Positions 16,653 through 35,379 of a stretch of 37,440 bases of DNA are shown piece by piece; the stretch's first letter is position 1; each line of letters begins with the position of its first letter. Both the position numbers and the translations under genes were made by a program. The notes under the pieces are model-generated. The model was not told the origin of the DNA and did no database searches. It saw only the letters and a program-made list of their open reading frames with translations. Source of the stretch: Bacillota bacterium (GTDB lineage Bacteria; Bacillota; Sulfobacillia; Sulfobacillales; Sulfobacillaceae); the NCBI GenBank assembly GCA_023475835.1, contig JAMCVM010000081.1, forward strand, positions 1-37,440. The letters are read 5' to 3'.

Positions 16653-16728
16653 GCTGGCGTAGCTCAGTTGGTAGAGCAGCGGTTTCGTAAACCGCAGGTC
16701 GTCGGTTCGAGTCCGACCGTCAGCTCCA
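16653..16728 (+). tRNA. tRNA-Thr (anticodon CGT), likely integration target
   Basis: A 76-nt cloverleaf: acceptor GCTGGCG with CGTCAGC (one G-T pair), anticodon loop TTCGTAA giving CGT, T-loop GGTTCGAGTCC, encoded CCA. It reads ACG codons. Its 3' end overlaps the stop codon of an integrase remnant on the other strand, the usual geometry of an element integrated at a tRNA gene. Confidence 0.97.
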
Positions 16729-16972
16729 TTTTTTGAGACAGAGCAAGGAATTCATGGATAACCCTAATCGTCGGAGTGGCCGTTCTCTGCGTTGTTGCCG
16801 CAATCGACCCGCTAGCGCTTCGGCTTTCGATCTCTGTGCTTCGGTTAACGCATGTGTATCAGTTTGTGCGGTGAAGCTGACTTGGCTGTGACCGAGTCGG
16901 TCTGCGATGACACGCAGATTTTCTCTTTCGGACAGAAGGAGACTGGCGTGGGTATGGCGCTTATGTGACCGG
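16720..16972 (-). pseudogene. Tyrosine recombinase remnant abutting tRNA-Thr
   Basis: The C-terminal part of a phage/ICE-type tyrosine integrase. It reads HKRHTHASLLLSERENLRVI then ADRLGHSQVSFTAQTDTHAL, continuing to a stop (TGA 16720-16722) inside the tRNA 3' end. The H-x-x-R-H-T-H box is present, but the position where a catalytic tyrosine is expected (family pattern T-Y-T-H-A-L) is aspartate. The N-terminal two thirds are missing; the reading joins another integrase tail of opposite polarity at about 16972. It is a dead relic of the element that used this tRNA. Confidence 0.8.
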
Positions 16973-17132
16973 GTTGCCTAAGCGGAATACTTTATCCACC
17001 ACTTTGCTCAACCAAGGCACGCCCCTCGTGGCTGTCCAATCCATTCTCGGCCACGAGAAACCGACCCAACTCTATGCCGTGTTGAGTGGCGAGGGTCGCC
17101 ATCAAGCCCATCAACGATATTTTGTGCAGTAA
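16973..17132 (+). pseudogene. Second tyrosine recombinase tail, opposite strand
   Basis: A plus-strand frame reads TLLNQGTPLVAVQSILGHEK, then TQLYAVLSG and a stop at 17130-17132. This is the end of another tyrosine recombinase, with box II degraded to KRNT and the nucleophile tyrosine kept in QLYAVL. It lies back to back with the minus-strand tail, so the two relics come from different genes joined by deletion. No start or N-terminal domain is present. Confidence 0.75.
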
Positions 17133-21019: not shown

Positions 21020-21288
21020 AGTAGATTTTGCGGTGAGTACGCGATTCTAAAACTTTATAGAAAACGAAAGCAAGCCTTGCGAGTATTGGGACAAAGATTT
21101 GTTGCAGGTCCCAAATCGAGAACAACTAACGTCGTATTTGTTGGGTAAGCACTGGTCTTGCCTAGGCGTGCTTGTCCTACCGAGGAAGATAACTCGAAGA
21201 ACTCTCGATAGATTATCCGGCTAGAGACCAACTATTGTCAGGATGCTGGGTGATCATCTGGCCTATCTAATCCAAGGAGGCAAGACTT

Positions 21289-21411
21289 ATGACGTTTCTA
21301 GACTGGGAAGAAAGTGAAGCGGTTCATAGCAATTTGTATACAAGAACGGTTACCAAAACCATCCGCGCGGCGTTATACATTCAACGGGCAAGAATCGTCC
21401 TCGACGATTAG
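21289..21411 (+). CDS. Small ORF (40 aa) upstream of YCF48-type gene
   Basis: ATG 21289 follows an excellent AAGGAGG with 7-nt spacing. The 40-residue peptide begins MTFLDWEESEAVHSNLYTRT and ends RARIVLDD; it is soluble-looking with no signal sequence. The stop is 26 nt before the ATG of the secreted BNR-repeat protein, whose own site AAGGAGG is equally strong, so they are probably one operon. I recognise no family. A leader peptide or a small regulator of the downstream gene are both possible. The 270 bp before it show no other gene. Confidence 0.55.
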   Translation: MTFLDWEESEAVHSNLYTRTVTKTIRAALYIQRARIVLDD

Positions 21412-21437
21412 GCCTAAGGGATAAGGAGGACATTCCT

Positions 21438-22670
21438 ATGGGATTCAGGTCGGAGTGGGGTATACGCTTAGCTGGCGTTTCGATGCGATCGGGGAAAGCG
21501 GCCTTGGTGGCGGCTGCCACGGGAATATTAGTGATGGCTCCCACCGTGGTGGCGGCGACGCCTCCGGTTACGGTGACCAGCTTACCTCCTGCCATCATGC
21601 CTGGCGGTTTAATTGATGTGGAAATGGCTTCAGCACGGGTGGGTTGGGCGGTGGAGGCTAACGGTCAGGTCATGAAGACCGAAGACGGAGGTCAACGCTG
21701 GACCGATGTTGCCCCGAAAACACTTGCCTCGGCCCTCCAGGCGAGTGCTCGCACATGGACTCCGCCGTTGGATGGAGGGCTTACGCAATGGGTGTTTCCC
21801 AACGCCTGGACCGCTTGGATTGTTACCGAGCCGGACCAGGGTAACAACAATGCCGTCGACGTGTGGCATACCACCGACGGCGGCGGGCGCTGGAGTGAAG
21901 CGACTCTCACTCCCGCGGTAACCGGATGGCATTTCTTGGGGTATGCAGCGATTACAGCCCTTGGTAACCAGGATGCGTGGGTGCTCACCGCAGGCAACGA
22001 TGGCTTTTATCGACTTTGGCAGTCGACTCGCCGTCGACCGACGTGGACCGCGGTGGCTCACGGAACTTTCGACGACGGGGGACTGGCCGGCCTGGCGTTC
22101 TTTACCGGTCGCAAGGGGGTGCTGGCAGAGAATGGATATCAAAGGCCAGAGGCGAGTTTATTAGAGTCAACGACCGGAGGGAGGTCGTGGCGAGCACGCC
22201 CAATCATTCCTCCTGGGGCGGCCACAAGGTACCCTGAACTGTCCGCTCCCAGTGTAATTTCGTCCACCCTTGGCATGCTAGCGGTTATCTGGCATGCGAG
22301 TTCTGCCTCCGCTCCACCGTCCGACCCATCGGCGCTAATCAACCTCTATCGCACCACCACCCACGGAGTCAGTTGGCACTTGGTTGGTCCTTTGCCTACA
22401 CACAATTCGGACACGGCCTTGACCCTCCATTGGATCAATGCCCAACAAGGTTGGTTACTCACCACTCCGGGGAATGCCGCGCCTCGATTGTATGCCACCA
22501 ACACGGGAGGGCTGACATGGCACCGAGTCTCGCTGCCGTCCGGGATCCCCTTAAGCCTCGAGCGAGTGTCGGCCAACGACGGGTTTGAACTCTCTTTAGC
22601 CGGGTCGCACACGGTTCTATATCGAACCCGTGACGGTGCACTACAATGGAAGGCCGTCCATGTGCAGTAG
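21438..22670 (+). CDS. Secreted YCF48/BNR-repeat beta-propeller protein, paralog 1
   Basis: A 410-residue exported protein. A signal or anchor helix lies at about residues 18-38 (AALVAAATGILVMAPTVVA). The rest is a beta-propeller of the YCF48/HCF136 or BNR (Asp-box) type: repeated T-x-x-G-G-x-x-W motifs occur as TEDGGQRW, TTDGGGRW, TTGGRSW, TNTGGLTW and TRDGALQW. In phototrophs YCF48 helps assemble photosystem II; in other bacteria the fold serves as an extracytoplasmic binding scaffold, and nothing here suggests photosynthesis. ATG 21438 follows AAGGAGGACATTCCT. Three paralogs occur within 14 kb. Confidence 0.78.
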   Translation: MGFRSEWGIRLAGVSMRSGKAALVAAATGILVMAPTVVAATPPVTVTSLPPAIMPGGLIDVEMASARVGWAVEANGQVMKTEDGGQRWTDVAPKTLASALQASARTWTPPLDGGLTQWVFPNAWTAWIVTEPDQGNNNAVDVWHTTDGGGRWSEATLTPAVTGWHFLGYAAITALGNQDAWVLTAGNDGFYRLWQSTRRRPTWTAVAHGTFDDGGLAGLAFFTGRKGVLAENGYQRPEASLLESTTGGRSWRARPIIPPGAATRYPELSAPSVISSTLGMLAVIWHASSASAPPSDPSALINLYRTTTHGVSWHLVGPLPTHNSDTALTLHWINAQQGWLLTTPGNAAPRLYATNTGGLTWHRVSLPSGIPLSLERVSANDGFELSLAGSHTVLYRTRDGALQWKAVHVQ

Positions 22671-22691
22671 GGAACTCCCTTAGGGCGCAGT

Positions 22692-22759
22692 TCTGCCCGT
22701 TAACGTCACAAGCCTGGGAATGGTCAGCTCCGGGCTTGTGGCACATACGCCCCCGTTAA
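22692..22759 (+). repeat. Boundary repeat, copy 4 (long hairpin form)
   Basis: Left box CTGCCCGTTAACG, hairpin arms CACAAGCC and GGCTTGTG around a GGGAATGGTCAGCTCC loop region, right box CACATACGCCCCCGTTAA. It fills the space between the convergent YCF48-1 and Nudix stops. Confidence 0.85.
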
Positions 22760-23231: not shown

Positions 23232-23398
23232 ATCCCATTCTCTCCTTCTGACTGTTATGGCTAACTCGATTAGTCTAGGGTTTTGGCTAAGTCAGTGGTC
23301 ATCAGTTCTAGCCTAATTCCCGGGTTGCACTGGTGGTCGGGGAGCTCCCCCAACGGTATTCTCAGCATTCGCTGATTAGCGTAGGCAGTGGGTTTTCT

Positions 23399-23497
23399 GG
23401 TGAGCTTTACAGCGAATACTGGTGGTGCGTCAATCAGCGAACCCAGCACTGCGGGCTGGTATTATCTCATAACGGTCGCGAGTGCGCTATCCTGCCC
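23399..23497 (+). pseudogene. Possible FWW-type tail remnant
   Basis: The frame reads GELYSEYWWCVNQRTQHCGL VLSHNGRECAIL and runs straight into boundary repeat copy 5. It aligns loosely with the tails at 30400 and 33537 (W, H-C, G and the final hydrophobics). The rest of 23232-23660 holds nothing else I can identify. Weakly supported. Confidence 0.3.
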
Positions 23498-28070: not shown

Positions 28071-28139
28071 TCCTGCCCGTTAACGCCACAAGCCTGGGAA
28101 TGGTCATCTCCGGGCTTGTGGCATATACGCCCCCATTAA
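28071..28139 (+). repeat. Boundary repeat, copy 8 (long hairpin form)
   Basis: Left box CCTGCCCGTTAACG, stem GCCACAAGCC/GGCTTGTGGC, right box ATATACGCCCCCATTAA. Its core is identical to copy 9 over about 55 bp. It lies beyond the 3' end of YCF48 paralog 3. Confidence 0.85.
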
Positions 28140-28243
28140 TGCCCTGATTCAACTTCAAAGTCTCCTTGTGCCATACTTGCGGCTCTGTGTCTCGCATAGT
28201 GCTTGCTTGGCTATCAATCGAAGAATGACAGCCCCAGTTGCCC

Positions 28244-29488
28244 CTAATCCGTTAACACCGGCACCCACGAAGTCCAGCGTCTCCCTCCGTCGGTGGTCAT
28301 CCAAACTGTTGGACCGTTCCCCCACAGCCATCCTACCTGTTGGTTGAGAAAGTCGATGTTCTTGAGGATGCCTTTCTGTGCGCCAGAGCCAAGCAGCGTG
28401 GCCGTGCTTTGTAGGGTCCAGCGCTGTCCTCCGGTCGTCGAACGCCAGAGCTTCGTCGGGGTAAGTATCCAGAAGACTTGGTTGGAGACCAAGTCTGCAA
28501 TCTGCTGTCCCGTCCAGTTGGAAGGCACGCTGATGGGGGTGGTGGTTAAGTCGCCCCAATGCTGCCCGCCATTCGTGGTCCGTAGGATCGCAAAGATTCC
28601 AGGGAACAGGCGGGTCAGCAAAACGCCGTGTGTCCCATCGAAGATCGGGGGGAGTTCGGCCAAATTGAGTCCCGCGATCAGGGTGACCGAGACAGCAGTC
28701 CAGGTATGTCCGCCGTTGAGCGTGCGTTCCAACGTGTCCACGCCGCCGAGGGGGAGGAGGTTCCGGTTGCTGGACTCCAAGAACATCCAACCGCTCGTGG
28801 CATTATCGAACGTGGGCCAACCGATTCCATGGGCCGTTTGATACACGCGGGCCCAGGTATGACCGCCATTGGTGGTGCGCCACACCTCCATGCCGAAGGA
28901 TCCTGCCATGGCCCCACCGGGTGGAATGAGGGGGTCGAAGACCATCCAGCCGACATGAGCATTGACAAAGTCGACTTGATTCAAAATGGGATTAAAGAGT
29001 GCCCTGTCTGCGAGATTGGGTAGATGCACCGTCCACTGCTGCCAACGCGAACCGCTATCATGCGTCACGCTGAGAAGAATCGTTCCGGACCCGCTGGGGT
29101 AGGACACCGCGGTGTCGGTCGCCGCCCAGGCGGTCGCCGGGCTGACGAAGTCGGTGACGGTATCGTGGGGAAGGATCAGCGGCCCGGGTTGCTCATTAAA
29201 CGTGACATGGGGGGGGGTCACATTGATCCATTGGCGGCCACCGTCGACGGTATGCAGTATCTGGCCGCCGAAGAGCGCCTTAGGACTCGCTAAGTGCCAA
29301 TCGGTGGCCCAGCCCACCGTCGCCGTTTCCATCTGGAGACTAGTTAGATGGACGGTGGTGGGGTGGACGTGGGCGGACGGGGTCAACGCCGCCGATCCAT
29401 TGGCTGCGACCAGGAGGGAGCTCGTAAGAATGGCACCCAGAATCCCATTCCAGCGCCGTTGCCGGATTAATGGAAAATACTTAGACAC
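28244..29488 (-). CDS. Secreted YCF48/BNR-repeat beta-propeller protein, paralog 3
   Basis: A 414-residue exported protein. Basic residues (RQRRW) precede the signal helix ILGAILTSSLLVAANGSAAL (about 17-36). Propeller boxes include TVDGGRQW, TTNGGHTW, TLNGGHTW, TTNGGQHW, TTGGQRW and TTDGGRRW, giving about six blades. GTG 29488 follows GGGAGGG with 7-nt spacing. Repeat copies 8 and 9 flank it closely, so it forms a single-gene module of about 1.6 kb. It diverges from the winged-helix gene at 29984 across about 500 bp. Confidence 0.78.
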   Translation of the reverse strand: MSKYFPLIRQRRWNGILGAILTSSLLVAANGSAALTPSAHVHPTTVHLTSLQMETATVGWATDWHLASPKALFGGQILHTVDGGRQWINVTPPHVTFNEQPGPLILPHDTVTDFVSPATAWAATDTAVSYPSGSGTILLSVTHDSGSRWQQWTVHLPNLADRALFNPILNQVDFVNAHVGWMVFDPLIPPGGAMAGSFGMEVWRTTNGGHTWARVYQTAHGIGWPTFDNATSGWMFLESSNRNLLPLGGVDTLERTLNGGHTWTAVSVTLIAGLNLAELPPIFDGTHGVLLTRLFPGIFAILRTTNGGQHWGDLTTTPISVPSNWTGQQIADLVSNQVFWILTPTKLWRSTTGGQRWTLQSTATLLGSGAQKGILKNIDFLNQQVGWLWGNGPTVWMTTDGGRRWTSWVPVLTD

Positions 29489-29983
29489 TAAAATTCCCTC
29501 CCAGGGCCGTCACGTACCTCAGAATGCCGTTAGGCCGTTCACCGTGTATAACGTCAAGCACGCCAATTGGGTTACCGAGGGGGGATGTCCAATGAAAAGG
29601 CGCTGCCTTTGACGCCCGTGCTGGGTCGCAGGCAACCCTATCCGGGTGAGTTTGCGTGGATTTAGTTAGGGAATATTTCCTTTGCTGCTTAGGGCACACT
29701 CCTGCCCGTTAACGCCACAAGCCTGGGAATGGTCATCTCCGGGCTTGTGGCATATACGCCCCCGTTAAGGCTGCAAATGCATTTAAATCCTTTGGTAACC
29801 TTTGCCACCGGTGCGACGTTATATTTATCGTCATGGCGGTCAGATGCGTCGAGCGTACGGAATTGTTTTGGAGGATGAGAATGGATCTTGCTCACGATCG
29901 TTAACGGATTCGCGGTCGCGGTTCGTTCCATTGAAATTACGCGGGAGGGTGACAGAGTTAGGTGATTGCATGGGAAGGGTCGA
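29489..29983. other. Divergent intergenic region with boundary repeat copy 9
   Basis: Apart from repeat copy 9 I see no gene. A CGATCGTTAACGGATTCG stretch at about 29896-29913 carries another CGTTAACG and may be a related binding site ahead of the winged-helix gene. Confidence 0.35.
29701..29768 (+). repeat. Boundary repeat, copy 9 (long hairpin form)
   Basis: Left box CCTGCCCGTTAACG, stem GCCACAAGCC/GGCTTGTGGC, right box ATATACGCCCCCGTTAA. This is the cleanest copy and best consensus. Confidence 0.87.
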
Positions 29984-34264: not shown

Positions 34265-34293
34265 AAGTAGGAAGACGACTCGCCTTCCTACTT
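34265..34293. terminator. Hairpin between convergent genes
   Basis: AAGTAGGAAG pairs with CTTCCTACTT around a 9-nt loop. It overlaps the stop of YCF48 paralog 4 and follows the pseudogene stop, so it can serve both strands. Confidence 0.6.
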
Positions 34294-35308
34294 ACTGGAC
34301 GTCCCACTGAGCAATGATTTTTTGGGTGAAGGTGCGAACGTTCAAGACCCATCCCTGCGGAGTAGATTGCCAAGAGACGGTGCTGAGGGGATTCGTCGCG
34401 TTCTGGGACTCGGTCGGTAAAACCGTCCACTGCCAGTGACTGCCGCCATCGGTCGTAAAGTACACCACGGAATACCCCGGCTTTTGAGTGCCGTTAGCGT
34501 TTAAGGCCCCATAGGCCGTGAGCAGGGCACCTAGCTGTGGGGTTGCGAAGACCGGAAGCCCTACTGGGTTTGGCGAATAGTCCTCTTTCGGATTGGAGGC
34601 GTGGGGCGCCAACAACGGAGGAACTGGCAATGCAATTCGCTGCCAGGTTTTGCCCCCGTTCATCGTTTTCGCCAGGAATTTCAGGTTTCGCACGGAATCA
34701 GTATTCAGGGACATCCAACCCACCTGCGCCTGGCTAAAGACCACGCCGGCGTTATCCGAGTATGGCAGATTGGCATTGACCAGTTGCCAGGTCGCCCCTC
34801 CATCGGTGGTACAGTACAGGCGATCCTGCCCCGGTTTTGCTGGCATATTCACGGGGATCATCAGCCATCCGCGTTCCCGCGAGTCCCAATTACTTTGGAT
34901 CGTGGCATCAGAGATTTGCCCACCTTTGGGTAAGGCTAAGAACGCCGTGTGCCATGTGCGCCCGCCGTTGGCCGTCGTCCACACCAGCCATTGCCGACCA
35001 TCTTGAGCAACGCCGACCATCACCGCCTGTTCGGGACTCGTGAACGAAGTGGCGAGTAACTCTGCGTGGGGGTGGGGTGCGCTGTCGATCGTCCAAGACT
35101 GGCCATCATTGGTGGTGCGCAGCACTTGTCGCGTCGCACTGAGGCCCCATCCAATCGTGGGGGTCACCTTCGTTACATCATGGACGGTCACCTTCGTTTC
35201 TGGAAGGTGCGTGGTTGCCGTAGGGTGTGCAGCGGTGACCATTGCCAGAGCGGTGGTCGCTGCAAGGATGCTGGCCACGCGAGCGATATGGTATTTATGT
35301 CTACGCAT
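34292..35308 (-). CDS. Secreted YCF48/BNR-repeat beta-propeller protein, paralog 4
   Basis: A 338-residue exported protein, the shortest of the four paralogs. The signal helix is VASILAATTALAMVTAAHPT. Propeller boxes: TTNDGQSW, TANGGRTW, TTDGGATW, TMNGGKTW and TTDGGSHW, about five blades. A TTG directly precedes ATG 35308; AAAGGGGA fits the ATG better. Like the others it is probably an extracytoplasmic binding scaffold. Boundary repeat copy 11 lies 70 bp upstream of the start. Confidence 0.77.
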   Translation of the reverse strand: MRRHKYHIARVASILAATTALAMVTAAHPTATTHLPETKVTVHDVTKVTPTIGWGLSATRQVLRTTNDGQSWTIDSAPHPHAELLATSFTSPEQAVMVGVAQDGRQWLVWTTANGGRTWHTAFLALPKGGQISDATIQSNWDSRERGWLMIPVNMPAKPGQDRLYCTTDGGATWQLVNANLPYSDNAGVVFSQAQVGWMSLNTDSVRNLKFLAKTMNGGKTWQRIALPVPPLLAPHASNPKEDYSPNPVGLPVFATPQLGALLTAYGALNANGTQKPGYSVVYFTTDGGSHWQWTVLPTESQNATNPLSTVSWQSTPQGWVLNVRTFTQKIIAQWDVQ

Positions 35309-35379
35309 CAAGAATATCCCCTTTCGTTATCTATAAACGATAACGTTCGTGGTGACGTAAAGGTTTCATTTGGCACATA

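Follow-up and report, generated by a model that had tools for sequence, protein, structure and literature searches.

The window analysed here is the whole of a 37,440-base contig (C121) from a source genome (G000) assembled in 246 contigs. It contains an intact tRNA-Thr(CGT) gene followed by two opposed C-terminal tails of tyrosine recombinases (YRs), which are separated by a short palindrome of the type found in recombinase in trio (RIT) elements. The features of this junction are listed below.

16653..16728, plus strand: intact tRNA-Thr(CGT) (ARAGORN; Rfam tRNA match at 16653–16725)
16723..16959, minus strand: first YR C-half, which begins with the Arg-His codons of HxxRH and has Asp in place of the catalytic Tyr; homology ends at ~16785
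16955..16960, no strand: 6-bp spacer TGGCGC (GCGCCA on the minus strand, Arg codon included)
16961..16981, no strand: decayed RIT palindrome TTATGTGACCGGGTTGCCTAA, which carries one inserted base and otherwise agrees at 18 of 20 positions with TTATGCGACCGGTTGCATAA from the G003:C92 RIT
16982..16987, no strand: 6-bp spacer GCGGAA, read from the sequence
16983..17132, plus strand: second YR C-half (multi-copy type), from the Arg codon of the box to the TAA stop codon at 17130–17132

The minus frame (16723–16977; ...KRHTHASLLLSERENLRVIADRLGHSQVSFTAQTDTHAL...) matches the C-terminal end of PF00589 with an E-value of 7.9e-4 (profile positions 130–168), as does the plus frame (16938–17129; ...KRNTLSTTLLNQGTPLVAVQSILGHEKPTQLYAVLSGEGRHQAHQRYFVQ) with an E-value of 2.8e-4 (profile positions 133–159). 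Both matches lie under the curated cut-off, which is expected because the tails are fragments. The minus tail is 55% identical to the YR that adjoins tRNA-Thr(TGT) in G011, and the plus tail shares 86% identity with further copies of one multi-copy YR type. Judged from sequence, these close relatives make it certain that both fragments are genuine YR C-terminal tails. Together with ARAGORN, Rfam, and PF00589, they bear out the original prediction that two opposed YR tails follow tRNA-Thr.

The minus tail had been described as ending inside the tRNA. Its reading frame does reach the tRNA because its own stop codon has been lost, but integrase homology already stops near 16785. As predicted, Asp occupies the position of the catalytic Tyr in this tail. 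The plus tail retains the Tyr, and its HxxRH box, which was thought to be lost, is lost only in part: the Arg is kept and the His residues are gone (PKRN). Two residues are also missing after GHEKP. Both tails are truncated at an identical point, the Arg-His codons of the HxxRH box, and this common start codon around a palindrome did not figure in the original prediction. The N-halves of both split YR genes are absent from the window's assembly; that of the plus-type YR had no counterpart in the window's own genome beyond Xer-type matches and was found in G001, a genome of the same genus. Elsewhere in the source genome, tRNA-Arg(ACG) is followed by two opposed YR tails in a similar arrangement (G000:C187, ~21166–21630; L051, 9166–9631). 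The plus tail of that pair is of the window's plus type, and the palindrome has been lost from the junction.

Between the two tails, the junction reads TGGCGC-TTATGTGACCGGGTTGCCTAA-GCGGAA. The arrangement that marks one end of a RIT, a palindrome set off from the target by 6-bp spacers, is found at 16961–16981, and the palindrome match sits exactly in the slot predicted between the two tail starts. The score of the gapped palindrome alignment was reached by 1 of 3,000 dinucleotide shuffles of the 472-bp junction region; this test was used in place of a strict ungapped matrix scan, which was not significant across the whole window. Because the palindrome is decayed and the ungapped scan is not significant, the case rests on position plus comparison. 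The palindrome is perfect or near-perfect in G004:C162, G003:C92, and G047:C52. The same pattern, ATGGCGGTTATGTAACCGGTAGCATAATCGCCATA, links two YR C-halves in G004:C162, adjoining tRNA-Arg, and variants of it link one YR C-half to other sequence in G001:C256, G013:C18, and G019:C23. As a control, the reversed pattern was searched for in 41 genomes and matched nowhere. The ritA, ritB, and ritC trio is absent from the window, which marks it as a scar and not an element, and the terminal inverted repeats present in related RITs are likewise absent. The window's own assembly contains no other copy of the palindrome and no intact RIT of matching type.

Comparison with relatives indicates that the tRNA-Thr(CGT) gene is a site of integration. 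The 96% identity between the window and G001 breaks off exactly at the tRNA 3′ end (16728), a synteny break of the kind that serves as a criterion for tRNA-integrated genomic islands, and the claim that accessory DNA starts at this point is upheld. Empty sites, for which a comparison had been proposed, are found in five relatives (G005, G006, G011, G016, and G023), where a glycerate-kinase gene lies directly 3′ of the tRNA. In G002, a 1,641-bp insert with YR remnants separates the tRNA from the glycerate-kinase gene. A ~31-bp stretch of the tRNA 3′ end is repeated around this insert, the distal copy preceding the kinase gene. No tRNA-adjacent copy of the glycerate-kinase gene was found in G000, G001, G004, G010, or G013, each of which has a single kinase gene elsewhere. 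Searches with a 20-mer and an 18-mer for the distal att site predicted for the window, which would directly repeat the tRNA 3′ end, detected none in the window or elsewhere in the genome; the only near match was the tRNA-Thr(TGT) isoacceptor at C164, apart from weak chance matches. The contig stops at 37440, so the end bearing the distal att may have been lost.

RIT elements contain three overlapping YR genes, measure ~3.5 kb, and have terminal inverted repeats and a palindrome that overlaps one end (PMC3414803; PMC2864759). Complete RITs are found inserted in YR genes. In G047:C52, a 3,467-bp element that encodes three overlapping YR frames (421, 361, and 375 amino acids) is delimited by the palindrome on one side and a RIT end on the other; a single YR gene, split at HDL|RH, supplies both flanks. 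When joined, these flanks read IRIHDLRHGMATQWLSAGINPKVASERLGHA, contain no stop codon, and match PF00589 (1.6e-24). The same RIT is inserted in the opposite orientation in G003:C92, again after HDL|RH, and the palindrome lies on the C-half side in both cases. A palindrome on this side in either orientation fits a circle joint of the form Y'-spacer-palindrome-spacer-Y with two inverted cores, and the published account of RITs (PMC3414803) is in accord with it. The rit gene trio is present in the matching elements L167 and L151, and joined flanks restore open reading frames in G047, L213, L222, L242, and others, as would be expected of a target split without loss. In G001:C345, the N-half of a plus-type YR ends ...KMHPHSLRH and runs into the RIT-type end TTATGGGATTGTTTCGGTTATGCGAAG; in G001:C256, the C-half of a plus-type YR is joined to the palindrome and a RIT-type end. 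These two halves indicate that the plus-type gene family was struck by such an element in the same genus. On G001:C345 (L270, ~1650–2100), only ~400 bp separate the RIT-type end from the end of the interrupted YR gene, and the structure looks like a short non-autonomous RIT derivative.

The palindrome joins two YR C-halves with no RIT in the window, G004:C162, and G013:C163. This is the rarer form, and in G013:C163 the palindrome has a different sequence and is located away from tRNAs. The reciprocal form is present at L192, where a RIT without a palindrome lies between two YR N-halves (left, ...KKKGSHTLRH; right, ...DEITPHWLRH; both PF00589). Three further RITs (L188, L189, and L243) have a palindrome and a YR C-half at both ends.

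That both tails break off at one catalytic codon, with a RIT-type palindrome between them, points to RIT insertion into integrase genes. We consider it highly likely that the junction is an old RIT scar, that the Arg-His codons of HxxRH in YR genes were the target, and that the YR of the tRNA-Thr element was one such target to which the YR of another element was joined beyond. The first target would have been the YR gene of the tRNA-Thr-integrated element, reading toward the tRNA; the second YR gene, from another element, would have been joined on the far side. The joint of the circular RIT is proposed to be Y'-spacer-X'X-spacer-Y, in which X'X is the 20-bp palindrome. Because X'X is palindromic, the circle would carry two inverted cross-over cores. 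Recombination between one core and a target would place target-N beside a RIT end and X'X beside target-C in either orientation of the RIT, a layout that can be read directly from the complete insertions. If the second core then acted on a further YR gene, X'X may be left with a YR C-half on each side and without a RIT. The two-core model predicts a reciprocal product in which a RIT lies between N-halves with no palindrome, and L192 matches this product exactly. Alternatively, the same RIT-free form may arise when a RIT bounded by X'X on both sides is excised; normal excision from a copy like L188, L189, or L243 would yield the form seen in the window. The RIT-containing forms with C-halves or N-halves at both ends could also be made by homologous recombination between two RIT copies, so we infer the exact route, as we do the RIT that acted at the window, the order of events, and the two-core chemistry. 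Later decay in the window would have converted Tyr to Asp, deleted two residues, and inserted a base in the palindrome.

The original prediction attributed the opposed tails to repeated integration at the tRNA, an interpretation that proves half right. The identity break with G001, the empty sites, and the G002 insert all identify the tRNA as an integration site, but the same-codon truncation and the RIT-type palindrome mark the opposed tails as a RIT scar in integrase genes. If the two adjoining, decayed integrase tails were left by successive integrations at the tRNA, their truncation points would owe their positions to chance deletion. Such a history is in keeping with the integration at tRNA-Thr in G002 and with the usual orientation of the minus tail, whose C-terminal end faces the tRNA, an arrangement also seen next to tRNA-Thr(TGT) in G011. 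However, it is unlikely given the shared start codon of the two tails, the RIT palindrome between them, the recurrence of this structure next to tRNA-Arg in G004 and at a site in G013 that is not near a tRNA, and the failure to find a distal att in the window or genome.

Perfect palindromes can mislead short-k assembly, and metagenomes supply most of the comparison loci, which raises the question of whether the head-to-head join is an assembly artifact created through the palindrome. The palindrome in the window is imperfect, with one insertion and several substitutions, and is thus unable to act as an assembly bridge; we regard an artifact as very improbable. A split integrase like that of SSV1, in which attP lies inside each HxxRH box, attB is a shared palindrome, and the C-halves are left behind, would account for the separated YR C-halves and N-halves that do occur at the same core. 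Nevertheless, the split genes are of diverse YR types, each RIT group has an invariant palindrome and invariant ends, and related RITs split unrelated genes (RT, ParA, IstB, and RadC) with the same layout. This identical layout in unrelated genes led us to reject the SSV1-like model, which we judge to have hardly any chance of being correct.

The range of genes interrupted by RITs emerged from a survey across bacteria in which one genome per species was scanned with a RitC alignment, yielding 80 loci. Fragmented metagenome assemblies are the source of many of the loci considered here. Where the limits of an element could be set, terminal inverted repeats and a 20-bp palindrome at one end were present in many cases. 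The joined flanks read ...R^H in YR targets (L185, L213, L222, and L242), PGLG^KTHLA and similar in the Walker A motif of IstB (L191, L195, L220, and L231), KGGV^GKTTT in the Walker A motif of ParA (L207, L211, L216, and L217), and S^HNHPSG in RadC (L253); in reverse transcriptases (RTs) of the intron type, the target is GTPQGG (L201, L227, and L229). Pfam matches on the joined proteins comprise integrase, IstB, ParA-type AAA_31, RadC, and RVT_1 with GIIM. An IstA target, GHEK^GNVE (L258 and a pair in G005), was assigned by motif reading with no Pfam match. The pair in G005 (L146 and L148) consists of near-identical RITs that occupy the same IstA motif in two IS21-like copies and face in opposite directions. 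The cultured strain Neobacillus sp. PS3-12 carries three identical RITs. At L241, a RIT lies at the SGGK^DST codons of a gene that looks like a PP-loop (PAPS-reductase-like) gene, an unusual target.

We think it reasonably probable that a general rule applies to RITs: each lineage would have as its target the codons for a single catalytic motif, in genes that belong to other mobile elements (YR HxxRH, intron RT GTPQGG, ParA or IstB Walker A, IstA GHEKGNVE, and RadC HNHPSG), and would insert through a circle joint that is palindromic and carries two inverted cores. If both cores were used, halves of two target genes would be fused, and the window would represent such a fusion. Described RIT copies interrupt radC and transposase genes (PMC2864759; PMC3414803), cases that fit this rule. 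RIT target specificity is given as not tested in PMC10214605, and we found no account in the open-access literature of RIT targeting at catalytic-motif codons or of a two-sided scar.

The window differs from RIT elements in having only the 20-bp palindromic remnant and two target halves. Tn554, SE, and GInt elements each have several recombinases or partners and insert site-specifically, and SEs have a 6-bp spacer between inverted motifs; these elements differ from RITs in their gene sets, and no 20-bp palindrome at one end is reported for them in the accessible text of the same article (PMC10214605). Islands that integrate into tRNA genes by means of tyrosine integrases likewise use the tRNA-Thr 3′ end as att site with the integrase gene adjoining, a model that accounts for the position of the minus-tail gene but not for the head-to-head join. 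The target of Tn554 is radC. Res-site hunter transposons and motif-targeting inteins and homing elements are likewise parasites directed at conserved sequences, be it sites in other mobile elements or catalytic codons, but their enzymes and chemistry are unrelated to those of RITs.

RITs have so far had no defined target or working model, and the open literature gives both their target specificity and their movement as untested. Insertion at conserved catalytic-motif codons would make a target available wherever other mobile elements occur, and it would also disarm the integrases, transposases, maturases, and partition proteins of competitors. The two-core joint would explain why broken integrase halves lie head to head, and annotators gain a simple means to separate RIT scars from the leftovers of tRNA integration.

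Other repeats are present in the window. A ~206-bp interspersed repeat (23253–23458) occurs in dozens of copies in the source genome and in G001 and has no Rfam match. A second short repeat family has three copies in the window (22679–22759, 28073–28141, and 29688–29768) and more elsewhere in the genome. The accessory stretch also encodes three proteins with BNR/Asp-box-type (PSII_BNR) matches, at 21438–22670, 28244–29488, and 34292–35311.
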